Shown: positions 1,439-8,420 of the stretch, one piece after another
Layout: each line of letters begins with the position of its first letter
Position numbering within the stretch: the first letter of the stretch is position 1
Assembly (NCBI GenBank): GCA_900555675.1
Contig: UNSN01000027.1
Span: 1-9,279, forward strand
Source: Candidatus Saccharimonadota bacterium
Lineage (GTDB): Bacteria > Patescibacteriota > Saccharimonadia > Saccharimonadales > Saccharimonadaceae
Length of the DNA stretch: 9,279 nucleotides
Direction of reading: 5' to 3'
Notes under the pieces: generated by a model
The model's input: only the letters and a program-made list of their open reading frames with translations
Database searches by the model: none
Told to the model about the DNA's origin: nothing
Made by a program: the position numbers and the translations under genes

Positions 1439-1448
1439 TACCACAATT

Positions 1449-1490
1449 TTGACAAAATCTATTGACATTTTATACTATTAGTGATATATA
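1449..1490 (+). promoter_or_regulatory. Two overlapping sigma-70-type promoters
   Basis: TTGACA at 1449-1454 is followed after 16 bases by TATACT (1471-1476). A second TTGACA at 1462-1467 is followed after 17 bases by TATATA (1485-1490). Both -35 boxes are perfect. They lie just after der and point toward the 133-aa gene, giving a leader of about 170-190 nt that would contain the complete 22-bp hairpin at 1569-1626. Assignment is by motif and spacing only. Confidence 0.55.
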
Positions 1491-1505
1491 TATATTAGCT
1501 TTTGT

Positions 1506-1531
1506 TGACAAGTTGAGATTTATTCCTTGTC
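1506..1531 (+). repeat. Short inverted repeat (GACAAG/CTTGTC)
   Basis: GACAAG (1507-1512) faces CTTGTC (1526-1531) with a 13-base loop. The same arm words form part of the longer stem-loop downstream of the 133-aa gene: TGACAAGTT is at both 1506-1514 and 2083-2091, and CTTGTC is at both 1526-1531 and 2140-2145. The word that follows each (CGAAAGCG...) is also shared, so this looks like a shortened counterpart of the downstream structure. Confidence 0.45.
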
Positions 1532-1543
1532 CGAAAGCGCACT

Positions 1544-1572
1544 TTGACAAGTGGAAGAATATACCTTAGATA
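1544..1572 (+). promoter_or_regulatory. Proximal promoter of the 133-aa gene
   Basis: TTGACA (1544-1549), a 17-base spacer, then TAGATA (1567-1572) gives a -35 box at 6/6 and a -10 box at 5/6 agreement with consensus. Transcription would start near 1579, about 90 nt upstream of the ATG. The last four bases of the -10 box lie inside the left arm of the inverted repeat 1569-1626, so anything that binds or extrudes that repeat would affect this promoter. Confidence 0.55.
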
Positions 1573-1626
1573 CAAGATGAGGTGTCGTAGCATTTAAGAA
1601 AATACTACGACACCTCATCTTGTATC
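1569..1626 (+). repeat. Perfect 22-bp inverted repeat (hairpin)
   Basis: The left arm 1569-1590 is an exact reverse complement of the right arm 1605-1626, with a 14-base centre. Inside the centre ATTT (1592-1595) can also pair with AAAT (1600-1603), leaving an AAGA tetraloop. No T-tract follows the right arm, so it is not a standard intrinsic terminator. It sits in the 5' leader of the 133-aa gene, 41 bases before the start codon, and overlaps the -10 box of the proximal promoter. It could be an operator, an mRNA-stabilising 5' structure, or an end of a small element. Confidence 0.9.
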
Positions 1627-1667
1627 AACCGGATACGAGAGAGTTTGGTCAGAAAGGCAGACTTGAA

Positions 1668-2069
1668 ATGGAAACGACAAACACAAAATTCGCCGTCAAT
1701 TTCGATGCGCTCCCCGATTTCGAGGTAGCACCCAACGTTCCTGTCGCGAAGTGGCAGGAACAAATGGAGCACAAGGATGAAGACTCCCTCCTCGGGGAGG
1801 TGATCAGGTTCTCCGTTAGGGTGGCGCGGCTCACGCAAGCCGCGGTATACGTAGACAAAAATCAGCCCATCAAGGAAATCATCCCTTGGGCTGTCTCGAT
1901 CGCAGACACCATTGGCATGTCCGGATACGGATTCTATTGCGCATCGCGCTGGCTAGCCTACTTTTGGGCGCGTCAATGCGAGTTTGCCGAATGGTATAAC
2001 GATGGACAGCCTAAGTCGGGATTCGTCCCAAGCCAGGATCTGATCCGTGCCCTAACTAAGGGCGAGTAG
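1668..2069 (+). CDS. Unrecognised 133-aa protein, ribozyme-associated
   Basis: I do not recognise this protein. It has 133 residues, no signal peptide and no obvious catalytic motif. The N-terminus (1-40) is acidic and looks extended. Residues 42-63 form an amphipathic helix-like stretch. Residues 70-110 are rich in aromatic residues (WAVSIAD, GYGFYCASRWLAYFWARQ, EWY), suggesting a compact helical core or a membrane-peripheral surface rather than a clear transmembrane span. I chose the ATG at 1668 because AGAAAGG (1651-1657) precedes it at Shine-Dalgarno distance; an in-frame TTG at 1620 lies in the hairpin and is unlikely. Hand count over 1681-2040 gives about 55% GC (197/360), above the genes beside it, with GC-ending codons frequent. 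Unlike most genes here it has a leader and a ribosome binding site. It is flanked by a 22-bp inverted repeat and, on the 3' side, by a stem-loop and a hammerhead ribozyme, which points to a recently acquired or mobile unit. Confidence 0.75.
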   Translation: METTNTKFAVNFDALPDFEVAPNVPVAKWQEQMEHKDEDSLLGEVIRFSVRVARLTQAAVYVDKNQPIKEIIPWAVSIADTIGMSGYGFYCASRWLAYFWARQCEFAEWYNDGQPKSGFVPSQDLIRALTKGE

Positions 2070-2160
2070 CGCTCCATTGAACTGACAAGTTAGAATAATT
2101 TACTTGGCGGTTCATAATCTCCCGCCAACAATTCTTCTGCTTGTCAGTTCGCTCCATAGA
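2070..2160 (+). repeat. 11-bp imperfect direct repeat around the stem-loop
   Basis: CGCTCCATTGA (2070-2080) and CGCTCCATAGA (2150-2160) agree at 10 of 11 positions and bracket the stem-loop 2079-2150. The right copy contains the hammerhead cleavage site (between C2154 and C2155). The pattern resembles a target-site duplication around a hairpin insertion, or a duplicated cleavage-site sequence. Only 3 bp of stem III could form with the upstream copy, so it is a poor ribozyme substrate. Confidence 0.6.
2079..2150 (+). repeat. Long imperfect stem-loop in the 3' UTR
   Basis: There are three nested pairing blocks. GAACTGACAAG (2079-2089) pairs with CTTGTCAGTTC (2140-2150), 11 bp perfect. AGAAT (2092-2096) pairs with ATTCT (2131-2135). 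TTGGCGG (2104-2110) pairs with CCGCCAA (2122-2128) around an 11-base loop. It starts 10 bases after the stop codon of the 133-aa gene. There is no T-tract, so it is not a typical terminator. Its last five bases (2146-2150) are also used in stem III of the hammerhead, so the two structures compete. Confidence 0.85.
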
Positions 2161-2202
2161 TGCGTATCTGTGCTGATGAGTCGAAAACGACGAAAGCGAA
2201 CT
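2146..2202 (+). ncRNA. Type III hammerhead self-cleaving ribozyme
   Basis: All conserved hammerhead parts are present in order. Stem III 5' strand is AGTTCGC (2146-2152). U2153-C2154 is the UH cleavage dinucleotide, so cleavage falls between 2154 and 2155. Stem I is CATAGAT (2155-2161) paired to ATCTGTG (2166-2172), 7 bp with one U-G, closed by GCGT. The core CTGATGA is at 2173-2179. Stem II is GTCG/CGAC (2180-2183/2188-2191) with an AAAA loop. The core GAAA is at 2192-2195. Stem III 3' strand is GCGAACT (2196-2202), 7 bp perfect with the 5' strand. Stem III is the open stem, hence type III. No invariant core base is missing. It lies in the 3' UTR of the 133-aa gene, reads in the same direction, and ends one base before the stop codon of the convergent gene. 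Activity is inferred from family knowledge, not shown. Confidence 0.93.
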
Positions 2203-3171
2203 TTATTCAAACATCATCAATTGTGCCGACAAAACCTCACGCGTAATTTCGTCCGCACGTTCACCAATTAGCACAATTTTTGCTGGCTCTTCCGCCGCAG
2301 AATTAGCTATTTGAATCTGATTTTCCGTTGCCTCCAAATGATGTCGCGCGCCATTATCATCAATAAAACAACCCTTCATTCGCCTGAGTTTATAAGCATC
2401 AAAAAGTTCCGGCCAAATTTTCTCCAGAGTCGCCGCAGCAATTTTCATACCAGAAACATCCAGCACGGCATATGTCGGATTATCCGGTACGACCAACTCG
2501 CCATCGTACGTATCAAAAAACGCCAACAAGCCAGACGACGTCGACATTTTATTGATATCAAATTTACCTCGTGGCGCGCTCAGTATTTTTCCGTAAGGCA
2601 GGGAGTTTAGCTTGGATTCGTATTGCAATCGCTCGTCGTCACTTAGCAAATCTTCTTTGGTCACTAAAATCATATCCGCCGCCTGCAACTCAATTTCATG
2701 CGCCGGCTCAATTCCATGTAAAATCTCATGCGCGTCAATAACATAAAAACTCTGCGCCAACTCGTACTTATTGAATATTTGTGCATTAATTAATTTCTCA
2801 ACCAAATTCATCGTTCGCGCCACACCAGTCGCCTCAATAAACACTGGGGCGGGGGAATTGCGACAAAAGTCAAGTAACATTCGCGTCAACGCATGCTTCG
2901 ACGAGCAACAAACACAATCGCCAGCCAAAGTCGTCACGATATCCGCCAGCTTCTCCAATCGATAACCGTCAACGTTTTCATTAGCATATTCATTCTCAAT
3001 CACCCGAGAACCCTTATAGTCGCTTTGTTGCAATAAGAACTCAAGAACACTAGTTTTCCCAGCACCCAACGAGCCGTTCACCAAATATAGCGGAACTTTA
3101 TCGATAACCGCTCGCCCATCATCAAACGGCGCATTAATGCTAAATTCCAAATCATCGTCGCGTTTTGCCAT
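2203..3171 (-). CDS. CobW/COG0523 G3E-family GTPase, metal chaperone-like
   Basis: G3E GTPases of COG0523 insert or deliver metals such as zinc or cobalt, and several are induced by zinc shortage. The 322-residue product has a P-loop GSLGAGKT (33-40), a following ENE (59-61), the signature metal site CVCC (86-89), IEATG (112-116), and TKED (171-174) in place of NKxD. A C-terminal CobW_C-like region extends from about 230 to the end. The frame is open further upstream (to 3333, into pth), but I chose the ATG at 3171 because TATAAT lies six bases before it (3183-3178, minus strand), giving a leaderless start, and because the P-loop then sits near residue 35. It is divergent from pth with 43 bp between start codons. 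Its stop abuts the hammerhead ribozyme of the convergent unit. With the permease and Fur-family genes nearby, a role in zinc or related metal supply is likely, though the metal is not determined. Confidence 0.9.
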   Translation of the reverse strand: MAKRDDDLEFSINAPFDDGRAVIDKVPLYLVNGSLGAGKTSVLEFLLQQSDYKGSRVIENEYANENVDGYRLEKLADIVTTLAGDCVCCSSKHALTRMLLDFCRNSPAPVFIEATGVARTMNLVEKLINAQIFNKYELAQSFYVIDAHEILHGIEPAHEIELQAADMILVTKEDLLSDDERLQYESKLNSLPYGKILSAPRGKFDINKMSTSSGLLAFFDTYDGELVVPDNPTYAVLDVSGMKIAAATLEKIWPELFDAYKLRRMKGCFIDDNGARHHLEATENQIQIANSAAEEPAKIVLIGERADEITREVLSAQLMMFE

Positions 3172-3214
3172 ATGCTTATTATACGTCATTTTCACAAGGT
3201 GATATACTAAGTCT
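3172..3214. promoter_or_regulatory. Divergent leaderless promoters, COG0523 gene and pth
   Basis: In 43 bp two start codons face away from each other. Plus strand: an extended -10 TG-A-TATACT (box 3203-3208) followed by six bases and the pth ATG. Minus strand: TATAAT (3183-3178) followed by AAGCAT and the ATG of the GTPase gene. With normal -10 to start-site spacing both transcripts would begin at or within a base or two of the ATG. No good -35 box is seen for either. No Shine-Dalgarno sequence fits in the gap. Confidence 0.7.
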
Positions 3215-3775
3215 ATGAAAGTCATCTTAGCGTTGGGAAATCCAGGCGAAAAATACACAAACACGCGGCATAATGCTGGGTTTTTAATTATTGATAAATT
3301 TGTGTCAGAGCAGGGAAAAACCTTTTCGAACAAGCCAAAGTTTTTCGCGGATATTGCCGAATCGAATATTTTTGGAGAGAAAATCCTGCTAGTTAAGCCA
3401 ACTACTTTTTACAACGAGGTCGGAATTTCCGCCCGAGCAATCTTAGATTTTTATAAATTGACATTGGACGATTTACTAATTATTCACGACGACACGACAC
3501 TGGATTTTGGTAAAATTCGAACCCGCAAGGGCGGACGAGACGCGGGCAGCAACGGATTGAAATCTCTGCATTCTCACATCGGATCAGACTTTTGGCATAT
3601 TCGCATTGGCACAGATAATTTGCTTAGGCGTCAAGTCGGTGACGTAGATTTTGTCCTAAGTAAATTCAACCCAGATGAGCAGAAAATTCTCCAAAGCTGG
3701 ATATTACCCGAATCAATTAATTTGATCGAGAAGTTTATTAACGGAACTATCGAGCCGTTCAGTATAAAATATTAA
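3215..3775 (+). CDS. pth: Peptidyl-tRNA hydrolase
   Basis: Pth hydrolyses the ester bond of peptidyl-tRNAs that drop off ribosomes, recycling tRNA in the cytoplasm. The 186-residue protein has normal family length. Visible motifs are LGNPGEKY (7-14), TRHNAGF with catalytic His19 (17-23), KPTTFYNEVG with Asn67 (61-70), HDD with Asp92 (91-93), and GKIRTRKGG (99-107) followed by DAGSNGLKS (109-117). The last motif normally reads GGHNGLKS; here Ser112 replaces the conserved histidine (His113 of the E. coli enzyme), while the next Asn113 is kept. The Met of TFMN is Tyr here. The main catalytic His and Asp remain, so activity is probably retained. Start: ATG six bases after an extended -10 box. It ends 7 bp before the stop of the convergent DUF475 gene, and I see no terminator hairpin in that gap. 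Confidence 0.95.
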   Translation: MKVILALGNPGEKYTNTRHNAGFLIIDKFVSEQGKTFSNKPKFFADIAESNIFGEKILLVKPTTFYNEVGISARAILDFYKLTLDDLLIIHDDTTLDFGKIRTRKGGRDAGSNGLKSLHSHIGSDFWHIRIGTDNLLRRQVGDVDFVLSKFNPDEQKILQSWILPESINLIEKFINGTIEPFSIKY

Positions 3776-3782
3776 ACAGATT

Positions 3783-4904
3783 CTAGCGTCGTTTTCGCAG
3801 CACAATTTTTGAAGCGCCGTTCTTCAATTGCTCTTCGGCTTGATGTAATTTTGCGGCCGCAGCTTCTTGTAGATTGATCGATCGGGCTTCCAATATGCTG
3901 CTACCGACCGCCAAACTCACGAACAATAAGCCCAAGCCGCCCGTCGCCCATTCCGGCAATTCCAAGTGGAATAATTTAGCAATCATCATCACGCCGAGCG
4001 CCATAATTGCCCAGTGAGCGCCATTTTCCAGATATTTATATTTACTAAGCGCGCCTGTTCGCAATAAATATACGGTTAGTGATCGAACCCAAATCGCTCC
4101 AGCGCCCAGTCCAGCCACGATTAATAGCACGCTGTTGGTAATGGCGAACGCACCAATCACACCGTCAAAACTAAAGCTGGCGTCCAAAATTTCCAAATAT
4201 AACAAGCTAGCGAACGCCGCCCAGCCAGTTTTAATCTTAACGGATTTTGCGTCATCTTCATGGAAAAATGACCCAAATAGCTCCAATCCGATATGCAGCA
4301 CAATTCCAAGCACTGCCGAAATCAGCACCAGAGATTTATGCGGCGCCTCGACCGTAAAATACAAAACAGCCGCCACGCTAAGCATTATGCACACCTTAAA
4401 ATTCTCAAATCGCCCAGCCTTCGCCAAAATCGGCTCAACATGTCGCATCCAGTGGACACGTTTGTTGTAATCGATGAAATAGCTAAGCCCAATCATAATC
4501 AAAAACGCACCACCAAACGCGTCAATCATCGGCGACGCCTCGTGCAGGATTTTGCCGTACTCAACAGGTTTATGTAGCGCCAGATTGACAACATCCATAA
4601 ACCCGTGGCCGCTCGCAATCATCACAATAGCAATTGGCAATATAAATCGAACGACAAACACTGCCACAAATATGCCAGCCGTCAGGAAGACTTTCTGCCA
4701 GACTTGGCTCATTCCCGCCAAAACCTTGCTATTTATCACCGCGTTGTCGAAGCTAAATGTAACTTCCAAAACCACCAAAATAGTAAATAGCCAAAGACCG
4801 CTAACGCCCATATGGCTAAAAATCAAACTACCCAGACCTAAGGTCAATAGGACTGAAAACCAGAAAATCCGAAACGGATGATGTGAATGTAAAAGATGCT
4901 TCAT
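3783..4904 (-). CDS. DUF475/TerC-like integral membrane protein
   Basis: The 373-residue protein matches the DUF475 (COG2899) family, related to TerC-type proteins linked to metal ion export or tolerance. It begins with a His-rich cytoplasmic start (KHLLHSHHP) and then multiple hydrophobic spans (about 12-30, 36-50, 72-98, 128-143, 170-186, 190-212, 228-240, 243-275, 298-312, 322-338). Two family motifs are clear: EVTFSFDNAVIN (47-58) and EILDASFSFDGVIGA (238-252), each with acidic residues inside a membrane segment, likely ion ligands. Residues 340-365 look like a short coiled coil, followed by a basic tail (LRKRR). The ATG at 4904 follows an extended -10 TG-C-TATACT (minus strand, box 4918-4913) by eight bases, so it looks leaderless. 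It is divergent from the permease operon, with 41 bp between start codons. The substrate is not known; manganese or another divalent metal is inference. Confidence 0.88.
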   Translation of the reverse strand: MKHLLHSHHPFRIFWFSVLLTLGLGSLIFSHMGVSGLWLFTILVVLEVTFSFDNAVINSKVLAGMSQVWQKVFLTAGIFVAVFVVRFILPIAIVMIASGHGFMDVVNLALHKPVEYGKILHEASPMIDAFGGAFLIMIGLSYFIDYNKRVHWMRHVEPILAKAGRFENFKVCIMLSVAAVLYFTVEAPHKSLVLISAVLGIVLHIGLELFGSFFHEDDAKSVKIKTGWAAFASLLYLEILDASFSFDGVIGAFAITNSVLLIVAGLGAGAIWVRSLTVYLLRTGALSKYKYLENGAHWAIMALGVMMIAKLFHLELPEWATGGLGLLFVSLAVGSSILEARSINLQEAAAAKLHQAEEQLKNGASKIVLRKRR

Positions 4905-4945
4905 ATTGATTTAGTATAGCATAAGCATGGAGTATAATTTTATAT
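4905..4945. promoter_or_regulatory. Divergent leaderless promoters, DUF475 gene and permease
   Basis: Plus strand: TATAAT (4933-4938), seven bases, then the permease ATG at 4946. Minus strand: extended -10 TG-C-TATACT (box 4918-4913), eight bases, then the DUF475 ATG at 4904. Neither gene has room for a Shine-Dalgarno leader. GCATAAGCAT (4919-4928), between the two -10 boxes, shares ATAAGCAT with the start region of the COG0523 gene (minus strand, 3179-3172) and might be a shared operator, though it is short. Confidence 0.65.
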
Positions 4946-5989
4946 ATGGCACAAAAATCGCCAGATGGTCGCATAAAAAAGTTTTTATCAGCCAACAGCG
5001 AATTGATCGGTTGGGTGGTTTTTGGCGTCCTTATAATTTCTATTTATCAATTCAGCTCACGATTCGGCGTTATGTTATTAAACGGAGAATTTGCAGAATG
5101 GTGCAATAAATTACTTCCGTCATTACAAGATTTCATCACGCTGACGCTAAGCGTAATTGTCGAGGCGGTCCCATTCTTAATTTTAGGAATTATCATATCC
5201 GCGCTTATCAGGTACTTTTTATCATCAAAAGATGTCTTCAAAATATTGCCAAAAAACGCCTTTCTTCGACGAATTGCGCTCTCTATGATCGGGCTAATTT
5301 TACCTGTATGCGAATGCGGCAACGTACCAATTGCACGCAGCTTAATAGCAAATGGGCTGAAACCCGCCGACGTTATTAGCTTTCTTTTCGCCGCGCCAAT
5401 CTTAAACCCGATAACCATAATCTCAACCATGACCGCCTTCAGTTTTGACACCCGAATGGTTTGGTGGCGAATTATTTTTGCGCTAATTATCGTACAAATA
5501 ACCGCTTTTATCGTCAGCTTTTTTAAGGAAGATTCCATTGTCAATCCAGAGTTTGAAAAACTTTGCCACCCTCATAATCACGGTTCAAAATTGTCAAACA
5601 TATTCAGCTCATCACGCAATGAATTCTGGCAATTATTTACTATGTTGGTCTTAGGTGCCAGCATCGCAGCCGCCACGCAAATCTTCGTTCCGCGATTCAT
5701 CATAAACGCTGTCGGTGGCGACATCTTCTTATCTGTCATATCCATGATCACGCTAAGTTTCATCATTTCGATATGCTCCAGCATCGACGCGTTCTTCGCA
5801 CTGGCTTACGTGCGAAATTTCACGACAGGCTCAATTTTATCTTTCTTGCTATTCGGACCGATGATAGACATAAAAATGATTACGCTATTAAAAACGACTT
5901 TTCGCTGGAAATTTATTGCAACAATTACCTTAACCGTATTCGCCTTATCGCTAATTGTCGGACTGGGAGTTAATTTATATGTACGCTAA
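4946..5989 (+). CDS. COG0701 (DUF318) family permease
   Basis: This is a predicted polytopic inner-membrane permease of the COG0701 group (B. subtilis YcgR type). The 347-residue protein has a cytoplasmic start and about eight hydrophobic spans (roughly 20-36, 60-90, 108-120, 143-163, 174-193, 228-250, 258-285, 297-310, 322-343). Family motifs are PVCECGNVPIARSLIANG (120-137) with the Cys122-Glu-Cys124 pair, AAPILNPITIIS (149-160), and a second half CSSIDAFFALAY (277-288). The internal loop holds HPHNH (208-212), a possible metal-binding patch. It appears leaderless (TATAAT, seven bases, ATG). It overlaps the next gene by 11 bases, implying translational coupling with the TIGR03943 protein, the usual partner. 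COG0701/TIGR03943 pairs occur beside zinc-regulated genes in other bacteria; the transported substrate is not established. Confidence 0.9.
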   Translation: MAQKSPDGRIKKFLSANSELIGWVVFGVLIISIYQFSSRFGVMLLNGEFAEWCNKLLPSLQDFITLTLSVIVEAVPFLILGIIISALIRYFLSSKDVFKILPKNAFLRRIALSMIGLILPVCECGNVPIARSLIANGLKPADVISFLFAAPILNPITIISTMTAFSFDTRMVWWRIIFALIIVQITAFIVSFFKEDSIVNPEFEKLCHPHNHGSKLSNIFSSSRNEFWQLFTMLVLGASIAAATQIFVPRFIINAVGGDIFLSVISMITLSFIISICSSIDAFFALAYVRNFTTGSILSFLLFGPMIDIKMITLLKTTFRWKFIATITLTVFALSLIVGLGVNLYVR

Positions 5990-6713
5990 CCTTGCAAGAT
6001 CAATTGGCGGAATTGTCGTTTGCGCATATATTTTGCTATTAGCTTGGCGTGACCAACTCGGCTTTTATGTTCATCCACGCTATCACACATTCGCGGTCAT
6101 AATTAGCGTAATCGGCGTTATACTTTTGCTTATTGATATAATGTTGCAATTAAAAAATAAATCCGCAAAAGACAAAACTAGAATTGGCTTGAAAAAAATT
6201 ACCCCGATATCTTATTTTGCAATAATTATATTATCAGTCGGATATATATTACCACCAAAGCCACTCTCTCCAAGCAGTCTCGCGCAAAAAGAAAGTCCTG
6301 CGATTATTGAACCTGAAAGCCGCTGCGAAGCACCTCAACCAAAAGAAGGCTCTTCTACAATCTCAATAAACCGCTGGAAAACCGCAATAAATTCCTGTAA
6401 AGAAGCCTCTTATTTTAACGGCAAAGATATCACCGTTACTGGCTTCGTTTCAAATGATCTGTTAAAAAACTACGGCTATAATTACTTCAATATTGCCAGA
6501 TACGTCATAAGTTGCTGCACTGTTGACAGCGTGCCTATGAAAATCCTGATCGAGAAAAACTTTTCGACAGATTACCCAGATGGAACATGGCTAATCGTCA
6601 AAGGCAAATTGTCACAGAAAATTGTTAATAGCCAAGCCGAATACGTCATAACCGACGCACACATCACAAAAATCAACCAACCCAAATATCCTTATGAATT
6701 GCTCGGGCTGTAA
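5979..6713 (+). CDS. TIGR03943/DUF1980 permease-associated protein
   Basis: Partner protein of COG0701 permeases (B. subtilis YcgQ type). The 244-residue product has hydrophobic spans at about 8-22, 36-55 and 77-92, then a linker containing the family element PPKPLSPSSLA (92-102), and a soluble C-terminal domain (about 125-244), presumably outside. That domain carries ITVTGFV (151-157), RYVISCCTVDSVP (174-186) with Cys179-Cys180 and Asp183, a WLIVKGKL strand (204-211), and YPYELLGL at the end. I chose the ATG at 5979, inside the end of the permease gene, because GGGAG (5965-5969) lies nine bases upstream; an in-frame TTG at 5955 is less likely. The Cys pair could bind metal or form a disulfide. 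The function of the complex is unknown; a link to zinc or another metal is suggested by the adjacent Fur-family regulator. Confidence 0.88.
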   Translation: MYANLARSIGGIVVCAYILLLAWRDQLGFYVHPRYHTFAVIISVIGVILLLIDIMLQLKNKSAKDKTRIGLKKITPISYFAIIILSVGYILPPKPLSPSSLAQKESPAIIEPESRCEAPQPKEGSSTISINRWKTAINSCKEASYFNGKDITVTGFVSNDLLKNYGYNYFNIARYVISCCTVDSVPMKILIEKNFSTDYPDGTWLIVKGKLSQKIVNSQAEYVITDAHITKINQPKYPYELLGL

Positions 6714-6718
6714 GTCTA

Positions 6719-6757
6719 TTGCACACTTGTTGCAATAAGTTATAAACTATTGATAAC
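6719..6757 (+). promoter_or_regulatory. Promoter and candidate operator of the Fur-family gene
   Basis: TTGCAC (6719-6724), 16 bases, then TATAAA (6741-6746) gives a good promoter, with transcription starting about 8 bases before the ATG. A 19-bp imperfect palindrome GTTATAAACTATTGATAAC (6739-6757; 7 of 9 pairs match) covers the -10 box and start point and has the size of Fur-family boxes. A second repeat TTGCA-N7-TGCAA (6719-6735) covers the -35 box. Autoregulation by the downstream gene product is a reasonable inference. Confidence 0.6.
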
Positions 6758-6760
6758 ACT

Positions 6761-7174
6761 ATGCTAAATGAAATATTTGAACGCCACAGTCTTCGCCTGA
6801 CAAAACCACGCCAGCAAGTATTTGATATCCTGCGAAATTCAGATGTGCCTCTTACGGTCGGCGATATTGCGAAAAACCGCAAAAACATTAACCGTGCCAG
6901 CATTTACCGTACGCTGCTAATGTTCGATACTCTGAACATTATAAACACTATAACTATTGGCTGGAAGAATTATTACGAGTTGGCGGAACCTTTTATACCA
7001 CATCATCACCATCTATACTGCATCAATTGTCAAAATGCCGAACCCATACAATCACAAGAACTCGAAAAACTCATAGATCTCATCGGTAAAAAACATAATT
7101 TCATAGTCACAAAACACCACTTTGAGCTGGAAGGTATTTGCGAAAAATGCCGACATATTATAGAAAATAAATAA
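6761..7174 (+). CDS. Fur-family metal-responsive repressor (Zur/PerR/Fur type)
   Basis: Fur-family proteins are dimeric DNA-binding repressors that sense zinc, iron, manganese or peroxide. The 137-residue product has an N-terminal winged helix with RLTKPRQQVFDIL (12-24) and the recognition region NRASIYRTLLMF (44-55), then the metal-sensing dimer domain with HHHHLYC (81-87). Two structural zinc pairs are present: CINC (87-90) and CEKC (127-130). His117, His119 and His120 plus the HHHH block are candidate regulatory ligands. Length is normal. It lies 47 bp after the TIGR03943 gene and has its own promoter and candidate operator, so it may be both co-transcribed and autoregulated. Its neighbours (COG0701 permease, TIGR03943 protein, COG0523 GTPase) favour a zinc-type regulator (Zur), but sequence alone cannot separate Zur from Fur or PerR. 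A bidirectional terminator follows 11 bp downstream. Confidence 0.92.
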   Translation: MLNEIFERHSLRLTKPRQQVFDILRNSDVPLTVGDIAKNRKNINRASIYRTLLMFDTLNIINTITIGWKNYYELAEPFIPHHHHLYCINCQNAEPIQSQELEKLIDLIGKKHNFIVTKHHFELEGICEKCRHIIENK

Positions 7175-7185
7175 TTTTTCCCAAC

Positions 7186-7228
7186 AAAAAAGCGCCAGGT
7201 AAGGGTGGGCATCACCTGACGCTTTTTT
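7186..7228. terminator. Bidirectional intrinsic terminator
   Basis: AAAAAAGCGCCAGGT (7186-7200) and ACCTGACGCTTTTTT (7214-7228) form a 15-bp stem with a 13-base loop. On the plus strand there is one C-A mismatch and the hairpin ends in T6, closing the Fur-family transcript. On the minus strand the mismatch becomes a G-U pair, so the hairpin is better there, and it also ends in T6, closing the minus-strand RNA. The loop contains GCCCACCC (minus strand), which can pair with an upstream GGGTGGGT. Confidence 0.92.
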
Positions 7229-7496
7229 ACCCTTCAACCCACCCGAGCTACCGTATCAGCGAAGCGTCGCGACTAAAACTCCAAAAGTCCGCGCCTGACT
7301 ATTATCAACACCAATTAGTGCTCGCCTCAACGGATGTCGCCTTTGAAAAAGGGCAGTTAAAGGGGTTAGTATGCGCGTAACGTTGAACCGCAAAAAGTGG
7401 AGGGTAAGAATACTTAATGCCATTGCGCGCAACCTAACATATAGTTAGAATAGGGGGTATAAGGTGCGTTTGGTTAATGATTACTTAACCAATCGT
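7187..7496 (-). ncRNA. Candidate structured RNA, about 310 nt, unknown family
   Basis: The gap between the Fur-family gene and dprA has no clear protein gene. The minus strand carries a perfect promoter (TTGACA 7530-7525, 17 bases, TATAAT 7507-7502, with an extended TGC) and ends in the terminator above, so an RNA from about 7496 to 7187 is predicted. Helices visible on it are: a 5' hairpin TTGGTTAA/TTAACCAA (7492-7485/7477-7470); a long-range helix GTTAG+TGCGCG with CGCGCA+CTAAC (7438-7426 with 7377-7365, 2x2 internal loop); CGC(G)GACT/AGTCGCG near 7292-7267; GCGA-CGCT-TCGC (7270-7259); and CCTTATACCC (7464-7455) with GGGTTGAAGG (7240-7231). I looked for tmRNA, RNase P and SRP RNA signatures and did not find them. 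An in-frame 55-codon reading (ATG 7423 to TGA 7256) exists but lacks a clear ribosome binding site. Confidence 0.6.
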
Positions 7497-7501
7497 CCTT
7501 G

Positions 7502-7550: not shown

Positions 7551-8420
7551 ATGGAAATCAATAGAATTACACCAGATGAGCATATTTTCTCCCAGAGATT
7601 AGCGCATATTGCCAATCCACCAAAAAGCTTATGTTATATGGGAAAGTTGCCGGAAACAAGCGCACCCGTCGTATCAATCGTCGGATCCCGCAAGCCGTCT
7701 GCCTACGGAAAAGAAGTCACCGAGCGATTGGCAACAGATCTGGCAAAAGCTGGGTGTGTAATCGTGAGCGGGCTGGCGCTAGGAGTGGACTGCATTGCCC
7801 AAAAAGCTGCGATTGAAGCTGGCGGAACGGTCGTGGCGGTCGTTCCAAACGAGCTTCCTGATATTTCACCGCGGACCAATTATCAATTAGCCATGAGCAT
7901 CATAGAGCAAGGTGGCGCGGTCGTTTCGGAATGGATGAAGGGCGATAATAAAATAGTCAATCGTTGGAGCTTTCTGGAGCGTAATCGGCTGGTTAGCGGG
8001 CTAGCTGACGGAATTATTATCACTGAAGCCGCCGAGCGAAGCGGCACATTAAACACAGCCTCGCATGCACTGAATCAGGGAAGAGATTTGTTTGTAGTTC
8101 CCGGAAACATAACCAGCCCGTTGTCGGCAGGTTGTAACACTTTATTAAAGCAAGGGGCGTATTTGGTGACGGACGCCGACGACGTTTTGTCAATCATCGC
8201 GCCAGAAAAATTGCAAAAAGACAACGGCCAAGAATTAGCAACCAGCGCAACAATTGAAGAAGCTATTATCATAAAACTCATCTCAGAAGGACTTCGTGAC
8301 GGCGACGAAATCCAACAAAAATCAGGATTATCCGCGTCAGATTTTGCCACGGCGTTAACTATGCTGGAAATCAACGGTGTTATCAAACCTCTCGGGGCGA
8401 ACAACTGGACATTACGATAA
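7551..8420 (+). CDS. dprA: DNA-processing protein DprA (Smf)
   Basis: DprA binds incoming single-stranded DNA during natural transformation and loads RecA. The 289-residue protein has the Rossmann-like core with VGSRKPSAYG (44-53), SGLALGVDCIAQ (73-84), ERNRLVSGLAD (143-153), IITEAAERSGTLNTA (156-170) and GRDLFVVPGNI (177-187), then a small C-terminal winged-helix domain (about 230-289). The N-terminal SAM-like domain of longer DprA proteins is missing; residues 1-35 are a short lead-in only. I chose the ATG at 7551 over an in-frame GTG at 7524, which lies inside the palindrome TTGACAAAGTGTCAA and upstream of any plausible start site. No Shine-Dalgarno sequence is visible, so a leaderless or very short-leader mRNA is possible. 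The divergent RNA gene shares its promoter region. Competence genes are common in Saccharibacteria-like genomes. Confidence 0.95.
   Translation: MEINRITPDEHIFSQRLAHIANPPKSLCYMGKLPETSAPVVSIVGSRKPSAYGKEVTERLATDLAKAGCVIVSGLALGVDCIAQKAAIEAGGTVVAVVPNELPDISPRTNYQLAMSIIEQGGAVVSEWMKGDNKIVNRWSFLERNRLVSGLADGIIITEAAERSGTLNTASHALNQGRDLFVVPGNITSPLSAGCNTLLKQGAYLVTDADDVLSIIAPEKLQKDNGQELATSATIEEAIIIKLISEGLRDGDEIQQKSGLSASDFATALTMLEINGVIKPLGANNWTLR

Follow-up and report, generated by a model that had tools for sequence, protein, structure and literature searches.

The hok-type mRNAs of type I toxin-antitoxin systems combine competing local and 5'-3' pairings with a processed 3' end and a stable message. A different kind of modular unit is represented by the integron gene cassettes (attI/attC), in which one site holds interchangeable single genes, with a hairpin after the gene. 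Hammerhead ribozymes in bacteria and prophages have been described by Perreault et al. 2011 (PMC3088659); according to the available parts of that paper, they flank single prophage genes, and the processing of long transcripts was suggested as their role. The available part of a 2017 review (PMC6155905) treats the role of prokaryotic hammerheads as an open question and describes small non-conserved genes between hammerheads. In a literature search covering titles, beginnings of abstracts and the matches listed, with subscription journals and bioRxiv largely outside its scope, neither hammerheads in this phylum nor 5'-3' pairing or UTR pairing beside hammerheads was found.

The stretch of DNA analyzed here, called the window in the following, comprises 9,279 nt of contig UNSN01000027.1 from a member of the Saccharimonadia and contains a type III hammerhead. 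Compared with the available descriptions of the bacterial and prophage type III hammerheads (PMC3088659), core, helices, and permutation are the same, as are the small unrelated neighbor genes and the occurrence in clusters. In contrast to these, a strand complementary to the unit's own 5' leader precedes the ribozyme by about 9 nt, and the units are chromosomal and have a conserved leader, with no phage gene named in the window. The hok-type mRNAs would be the nearest functional parallel, as local and 5'-3' long-range pairings stand against each other in both; here, a ribozyme is found instead of nuclease processing, the cargo varies, and no toxin or antisense RNA is among the parts identified. 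Like integron cassettes, the units have interchangeable single genes at one site and a hairpin behind the gene, but they own a promoter-like sequence, a leader, and a ribozyme, and their hairpin contains G-U pairs.

The inserted unit and its surroundings

The following features, all on the forward strand, are distinguished in the window.

1439 to 2202, inserted unit between der and cobW, delimited by comparison with the relatives G009, G001, and G002
1449 (TTGACA) and 1476 (TATACT), candidate promoter overlapping the next one, from a scan with 4 sites against 1.5 expected, this one with 11 of 12 matches
1462 to 1490, candidate promoter TTGACA - 17 nt - TATATA, by eye
1498 to 1538, 5' hairpin H1, from a match to model R2 (1498-1557), folds, and pair counts on sisters
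1545 to 1560, P0, 5' strand of a putative long-range helix (TGACAAGTGGAAGAAT), complement of 2131-2146
1569 to 1626, H2, a 22-bp hairpin (GATACAAGATGAGG...CCTCATCTTGTATC), from the inverted repeat 1560-1595/1600-1635 and a fold
1668 to 2069, cargo gene of 133 aa, Tad4-like (type I Thoeris inhibitor family), assigned to Pfam PF25186 via relatives
2083 to 2096, P0c, local competitor of P0 (TGACAAGTTAGAAT) that can pair with P0' as a hairpin, from folds (ungapped 13-mer test, p 0.17)
2104 to 2128, 3' UTR hairpin TTGGCGG...CCGCCAA within the P0c/P0' hairpin, from a fold
2131 to 2146, P0', 3' strand (ATTCTTCTGCTTGTCA) that can pair with P0 in the putative panhandle or with P0c in the local hairpin, from pairing tests
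2146 to 2202, type III hammerhead ribozyme with a predicted cut at 2154/2155, from sequence reading, a descriptor, and covariance models

The stop codons of der and cobW are separated by 764 nt in the window (1439-2202) and by 6 nt in the relative G009. In the closer relatives G001 and G002, this site holds another gene, enclosed by the same leader (TTGACAAG...CTTGTCCGAAAGCGCACTTTGACAAG) and a near-identical hammerhead; the sequence shared with the window ends at TTTGACAAG on the left and restarts at CTTGTCA on the right. G001 is the nearest genome compared and has 23% of the window's sampled words in common. The gene order in the window is der, the 133-aa gene, the hammerhead, cobW on the opposite strand, pth, a TerC/DUF475 gene, and an ArsP-type permease gene, followed by genes for DUF1980 and a Fur-family regulator, dprA, and a CDP-alcohol phosphatidyltransferase gene. 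The surroundings consist of housekeeping genes, and of the genes named there none is a phage gene or encodes an integrase or a reverse transcriptase.

A preliminary description of this DNA had tied the hammerhead to the 133-aa orphan gene and to the adjacent metal-chaperone gene. Neither tie is supported: in G001 and G002 a near-identical hammerhead follows a different gene, across relatives hammerheads come after many unrelated genes, and the convergent cobW is merely a neighbor. The same description had considered a hammerhead tied to a small orphan gene next to a metal-chaperone gene as possibly undescribed; hammerheads flanking small genes are already in print for prophages and bacteria in the available parts of PMC3088659 and PMC6155905. 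The shared 5' leader and the complementarity of P0 and P0' go beyond that description.

Some further features of the surroundings were noted. In the region 2203-7174, cobW, the ArsP-type permease, DUF1980, and Fur-family regulator genes are close together, which likely represents a metal-handling region. A terminator-like hairpin (AAAAAAGCGCCAGGT...ACCTGACGCTTTTTT) is visible by eye at 7185-7230 and is followed at 7240-7500 by about 260 nt without an assigned gene, in which no Rfam family reaches its gathering score. The same applies to the entire window, and in 10 sister loci only two tRNAs reach this score. Matches of the leader to eukaryotic microRNAs and a scaRNA in Rfam were rejected, as a long hairpin alone gives them.

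The hammerhead ribozyme

The hammerhead at 2146-2202 is confirmed by sequence reading, a descriptor, and a covariance model as a real ribozyme motif of type III, and its cleavage is predicted. As claimed in the preliminary description, the motif is complete with all core bases and three helices. Stem III consists of GTTCGCT (2147-2153) and AGCGAAC (2195-2201) with 7 bp, and A2146-T2202 forms an eighth pair. H17 is C2154. Stem I (2155-2161/2166-2172) has 7 bp including one G-U pair and is closed by the loop GCGT; the core CTGATGA (2173-2179) is followed by stem II (GTCG/CGAC with loop AAAA, 2180-2191) and the core GAA (2192-2194). The elements listed in the available methods of PMC3088659 are all found, namely CUGANGA, GAA, A15.1-U16.1, and H17, and there are no core-adjacent mispairs. 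The three helices are possible and stem III is open, which assigns the motif to type III according to the descriptor and the covariance model R1. Core and helices lead to the same predicted position of the break, between 2154 and 2155, which agrees with the earlier proposal, as does the location of the hammerhead downstream of the 133-aa gene in the same direction, which reads as the 3' UTR of this gene. Compared with G001, one position of stem I is changed with pairing kept (A-T in G001, G-T in the window).

R1 was built from 46 sister hammerheads, including the window's own, and its rows were picked by a descriptor that already requires part of the pairing. Among these pre-selected rows, 98.9% of the pairs are standard, and the bases of loops I and II are partly conserved. 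With its own ribozyme among the 46, the window is matched by R1 with 71.1 bits (E 4.6e-23), while the second-best match reaches 6.8 bits, in line with the previous view that a chance occurrence is unlikely. The check with Rfam that had been proposed, in which the lack of a hit above threshold was to count as a refutation, turned out otherwise: RF00008 yields 25.1 bits (E 0.0019) on 221 nt and the gathering score of 48.5 bits is not reached. The same cut-off, however, misses almost all sister hammerheads; RF00008 finds 33 places in 16 of 61 relatives at E ≤ 1e-3 and none in 14 control genomes, and the gathering score is passed by one and missed by 32 of these 33 listed places.

The minimum-energy fold of 2070-2215 has a z of -5.0, with 0 of 200 shuffles equally stable. 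Stems I and II are drawn in this fold but stem III is not drawn as such; GTTC (2147-2150) is captured by an upstream hairpin and AGCG (2195-2198) is drawn with CGCT (2070-2073). This suggests that the local hairpin may hinder the ribozyme.

The 5' leader

H1 is composed of an outer stem GCUUUUG/CGAAAGC, a two-nt bulge UU, and an inner stem GACAAG/CUUGUC. In nine sister leaders, not counting the window, 93.4% of its pairs are standard, and none of 500 shuffles is equally high. Sister leaders have the layout promoter-like sequence, H1 (usually with a two-nt bulge on the 5' side), a short spacer often ending with ACTT, and P0; by reading, H2-like hairpins are found in many of them. The layout of a whole unit in Saccharimonadia is the 5' hairpin H1, P0, often H2, the gene, P0', and the hammerhead, and in most of 43 units the gene starts about 70-145 nt past P0, with start codons chosen by us.

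The model R2 represents H1 and P0 and is derived from nine hammerhead-linked leaders, with one row altered by one base. In the window, its best match spans 1498-1557 and scores 18.2 bits (E 0.002), with 11.1 bits for the runner-up. Of 294 genomes of the class, 23 contain R2 matches, 51 places in all; of 379 genomes drawn across the phylum, one does, and it belongs to the family of the nearest genome. In contrast, R1 finds hammerheads in 83 of the 294 genomes (E ≤ 1e-3) and in 45 of the 379 (E ≤ 1e-5). From these counts, the leader looks like a feature of Saccharimonadia and the hammerhead like a wider one, and hammerheads thus have leader-free uses.

An exact leader motif, TTGACAAGCAGAYA, occurs 28 times, spread over 17 of 294 genomes, and its reversed control 3 times. 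A hammerhead on the same strand follows 505-1298 nt downstream of 17 of the 28 matches (16 by descriptor, L372 by R1); this test is partly circular, as 12 of the 17 are in hammerhead-selected loci from which the motif was derived. The 16 matches outside these loci include 5 with a hammerhead, 3 with P0' but no hammerhead (L345, L349, L355), and at least 4 that look like chance (L353, L354, L357, L358). By sequence comparison, the hammerhead is part of an insert with a recurring leader (H1, P0) and variable cargo.

Complementarity between leader and 3' element

In the window, P0' ends 8 nt before the predicted cut, and its complementarity with P0 has a p of 0.005 against 200 shuffles and of 0.009 against swapped 3' elements. 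The generality of this arrangement was assessed from both ends of the unit. From the ribozyme side, the 35 nt before the cut were taken and a complement was sought 120-2000 nt upstream, with the 3' elements of other loci as control. The set consisted of 110 descriptor hammerheads with at least 1000 nt upstream, and the distance to the cut did not enter the score. A complement was obtained for 30 of 110 hammerheads at p ≤ 0.05 (5.5 expected) and for 9 at p ≤ 0.01; the other 80 had p > 0.05. The distance from the end of the 3' strand to the cut is 4-11 nt in all 30 significant cases and 9-10 nt in 21 of them. The upstream partners differ and include TGACAAGCAGACA, GACAGACAGATACGC, GCACCAACACATCC, TGTAAGGAGA, and others.

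From the leader side, P0 was set by R2 and compared with shuffled P0 in 55 leaders, which are the 51 R2 places minus G235:C2:117850 and G181:C4:490178, plus six others including the window. A downstream P0' reaches p ≤ 0.05 for 42 of these leaders and p ≤ 0.01 for 34. A descriptor hammerhead follows 5-10 nt past P0' (H17 not counted) in 26 of the 55. No significant P0' is present for 13 leaders, and some of the significant ones are without any 3'-end signal after P0'. The helix is weak in G001 and G002 (p 0.08 and 0.17).

With both strands fixed, 34 units could be compared by permutation; these are the units with a descriptor hammerhead among 38 leader hits picked as hammerhead-linked. At the best of five distances, 93.0% of the positions are paired, while 2000 permutations among the units average 86.2%, peak at 89.3%, and never reach 93.0%, with kinship among units uncorrected. 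At the single distance 8 (H17 not counted), 68.7% are paired compared with 64.9% after permutation, and 2 of 2000 permutations are as high; at the other 15 of the distances from 0 to 15, 35-51% are paired. The high permutation baseline is due to one motif common to many units, and the covariation lies in the excess over this baseline. Shuffles and permutations alike take the units as independent, though they are related by descent.

Some related analyses were set aside. A first pairing scan of 163 hammerheads including viral contigs gave 32 at p ≤ 0.025 and was not used further because repeated palindromic hairpins in the viral contigs confound it. An additional helix between leader and 3' UTR (P1) was dropped with 5 of 23 units at p ≤ 0.05. 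Sequestration of the ribosome site by the 3' element was rejected as a general feature, as by reading it is confined to the G035 array described below and a few TGTAAGGAGA units.

A candidate local competitor of the putative long-range helix

Behind the gene, a second copy of P0, termed P0c, can pair with P0'. At p ≤ 0.05, P0c is found in 19 of 34 units and starts 59-93 nt before the end of P0'; two of the 34 (L326, L303) were scored with a wrong leader position, and both are among the misses and neither is in the 19. A typical P0c is TGGCAAGTGGATA alongside the P0 TGACAAGCAGACA. In the 19 units, P0:P0' has on average 12.4 Watson-Crick and 0.4 G-U pairs of 13, and P0c:P0' has 9.7 and 2.9, with the G-U count biased upward as the best partner was picked with G-U allowed; the same bias applies to the shuffles. 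P0 and P0c are direct repeats flanking the gene, and P0c/P0' forms a hairpin behind it. The weakening of P0c/P0' by G-U pairs points to RNA rather than DNA, since G-U counts only in RNA.

In the window, P0c is not significant in the ungapped 13-mer test (p 0.17). In a fold of the whole unit, P0' is assigned to P0c with 0.81 and to P0 with 0.11, and the isolated duplexes have -20.8 (P0'/P0c) and -22.7 kcal/mol (P0'/P0). The P0c hairpin (GAACTGACAAG...CTTGTCAGTTC) occupies four bases of stem III.

Terminator-like hairpins in place of the ribozyme

For units with and without a hammerhead, the 80 nt past P0' were searched with a strict terminator rule (stem of at least 5, at least 3 G-C pairs, T-run). 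The set included 43 of the 55 leaders, as 12 with an uncertain-looking P0' were excluded, and L291 and L037 were counted as hammerhead units though the descriptor missed theirs. Of the 15 units that lack a hammerhead, 5 have a terminator-like hairpin (L407, L408, L410, L421, L427; 0.7 expected from shuffles), L407 and L408 being nearly identical; of the 28 units with a hammerhead, none has one (0.4 expected). A looser rule gives 10 of 29 units without and 5 of 26 with a hammerhead; L404 has a terminator-like hairpin by this rule but not by the strict one, and L345 has one by reading. Also by reading, hammerhead remnants are located past P0' in L405, L406 (unit at 2031), and L426, in which stem II is broken, the first base of the core is changed, or only the beginning of the motif is left.

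Across units, comparison thus establishes the complementarity of P0 and P0' at a near-fixed distance from the predicted cut and terminator-like hairpins in some ribozyme-less units. The latter suggest 3'-end formation as the job of the hammerhead.

Cargo genes

The 133-aa gene had been regarded as unrecognised. This stands for the window protein itself, which matches the Pfam family Tad4 (PF25186) with 14.7 bits (E 0.038), below the 25-bit cut-off, and is therefore named Tad4-like and not Tad4; it does not stand for its family, in which 26 of 27 members match Tad4 at E ≤ 1 with a best value of 1.1e-6. PF25186 is also present in the protein P0010, which shares 78% identity with the window protein, and the gene of the L279 unit matches Tad4 at E 6.5e-24 and the window protein at 2.2e-8. 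Through these close relatives, the window protein groups with the Tad4 family by sequence similarity. Thirty relatives of the window protein were found in the protein database; relatives of its gene were found neither by a scan of genome contigs nor in the 61 relatives. A PDB sequence search gave no match, and the fold of the gene product was predicted poorly, with a mean pLDDT of 43.9. Judged from its family, the Tad4-like cargo is likely directed against Thoeris-type defence; the literature search, with subscription journals and bioRxiv largely outside, gave no paper joining Tad4 with Thoeris.

Among 41 cargo genes, matches at E ≤ 0.01 are two DUF2807 and one each of DUF6197, ion channel, Band 7, Rce1-like, DUF1523, and DUF7101. 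We take the Rce1-like match (CAAX-protease family, E 0.0022) to be the cargo gene of G001 and G002, of which a 170-residue piece had no match at E ≤ 0.01. Matches of the 41 genes to two JetC models in PADLOC, with one member each and a best value of 8.8e-4, were not used. The cargo of the units is thus diverse, and anti-defence represents a single case rather than the rule. In L268, a cargo gene on the minus strand, with the cut at reverse-strand position 8238, encodes an RNA polymerase alpha C-terminal domain (PF03118, E 1.1e-12).

Hammerheads in other lineages and arrangements

The exact pattern CTGATGAGTCSRAAASGACGAAA occurs at no fewer than 80 loci of the named genome collection; among those listed, 64 have Patescibacteria names in their titles, 14 are titled only 'bacterium', and 2 belong to others (Phycisphaerales, Polynucleobacter). 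In viral contigs, hammerheads were found in 51 stretches. At the viral loci L186, L188, L199, L203, L206, L215, L219, and L230, a near-identical palindromic hairpin (GTGTCTTCAAAGACAC or similar) is located right before the hammerheads and is perhaps the phage form of the 3' element.

Clustered arrangements were also observed. L078 (Parcubacteria S40-23) has eight hammerheads on one strand within about 4 kb. On the minus strand of L031 (G035:C13, 8440-5940), a four-unit array can be read in which small paralogous-looking genes are each ended by a hammerhead; its leader, GAGCACAAGGAGTGA, is of a different type, holds the ribosome-binding site and, by reading, complements CACTCCT...GTGCTC upstream of the hammerhead. 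On the minus strand of L033 (G045:C1, 7600-2340), hammerheads come after multi-gene stretches with a similar 3' element (CTAGAGAAAGTCTCTAG) before each, and the genes named by eye are ThiF/E1-like, MoaD/ubiquitin-like, and DGQHR/DndB-like. Outside Saccharimonadia, L119 (Shapirobacteria) has a 22-nt 5'-3' complement that ends 6 nt before the cut, so that other classes may own a version of the 5'-3' pairing.

Alternative explanations

That the hammerhead only cuts read-through transcripts into gene-length pieces, as in phage-type processing, with the leader pairing as a side feature of one clade, is unlikely but has several observations on its side. Hammerheads are spread over the phylum without the leader (45/379 versus 1/379 genomes), they occur in the 51 viral stretches, and clusters of them flank single prophage genes in the available parts of PMC3088659. 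This does not readily account for units that own a promoter-like sequence and a leader, for a window situated among housekeeping genes with no phage gene named there, or for a P0' at a near-fixed distance from the cut, at which place some ribozyme-less units have a terminator-like hairpin. The repeats could also act at the level of DNA, with P0, P0c, and P0' as sites at which an integron-like system recombines and with the hammerhead as a passenger. The gene lies between the direct repeats P0 and P0c and is followed by the P0c/P0' hairpin, the same site bears different cargo in G001/G002 and is empty in G009, and several units lie close together in G035, G181, and G229; yet promoter, H1, and hammerhead travel along although they are outside the repeats, differences in the P0 sequence are matched by changes in P0', and the G-U pairs in P0c/P0' count only in RNA. 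We consider such a cassette improbable.

That the unit is a circular RNA of retrozyme or viroid type, replicating by means of the ribozyme, is highly improbable, as the window has one hammerhead only and a reverse transcriptase is absent among the genes named there, although the hammerhead does terminate a stretch of 0.5-1.3 kb with complementary ends and neighboring units in some loci place a ribozyme on either side of a gene. Finally, the hammerhead might be an inactive relic, like the broken ones past P0' in the sisters L405, L406, and L426, and stem III is undrawn in the local fold; its core bases are all intact, as in G001, and the lone change in stem I relative to G001 keeps the pairing, so that decay of the motif has next to no probability.

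Proposed mechanism and significance

The reading preferred here, which we hold to be somewhat more probable than not, is that the hammerhead ends the inserted unit and would trim the mRNA 8 nt past P0', and that the ends of the message would then likely close as a panhandle. We infer promoter use, cleavage in the cell, the order of folding, and an effect on stability or translation from the layout of the units. Transcription would start at or near H1, and the hammerhead, or a terminator instead, would end the RNA just past P0'. P0' would fold first with the nearby P0c, which offers more G-U pairs, and P0, which is nearly all Watson-Crick, may then take P0' over from P0c and thereby close the message. 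Ends sealed by a helix would resist exonucleases and protect the RNA, and switching between the open and the closed message would set stability or translation.

In its full form, this amounts to a new class of structured mRNAs in Saccharimonadia, in which P0' is a two-state switch between the G-U-rich decoy P0c and the 5' leader P0, and in which the hammerhead about 9 nt behind, replaceable by a terminator, forms the 3' end that lets the panhandle close. We put this forward tentatively, with slightly less than even confidence. If it is true, 3'-end formation of self-closing accessory-gene messages would be the first defined job for bacterial hammerheads. The partner element, the near-fixed distance to the cut, the terminator-like hairpins, and the built-in competitor make a role of the hammerhead in bacteria testable. 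It would further represent an unusual control of accessory genes in Saccharibacteria, and the units provide a handle on the variable genes of these bacteria, one of which groups with an anti-defence family.
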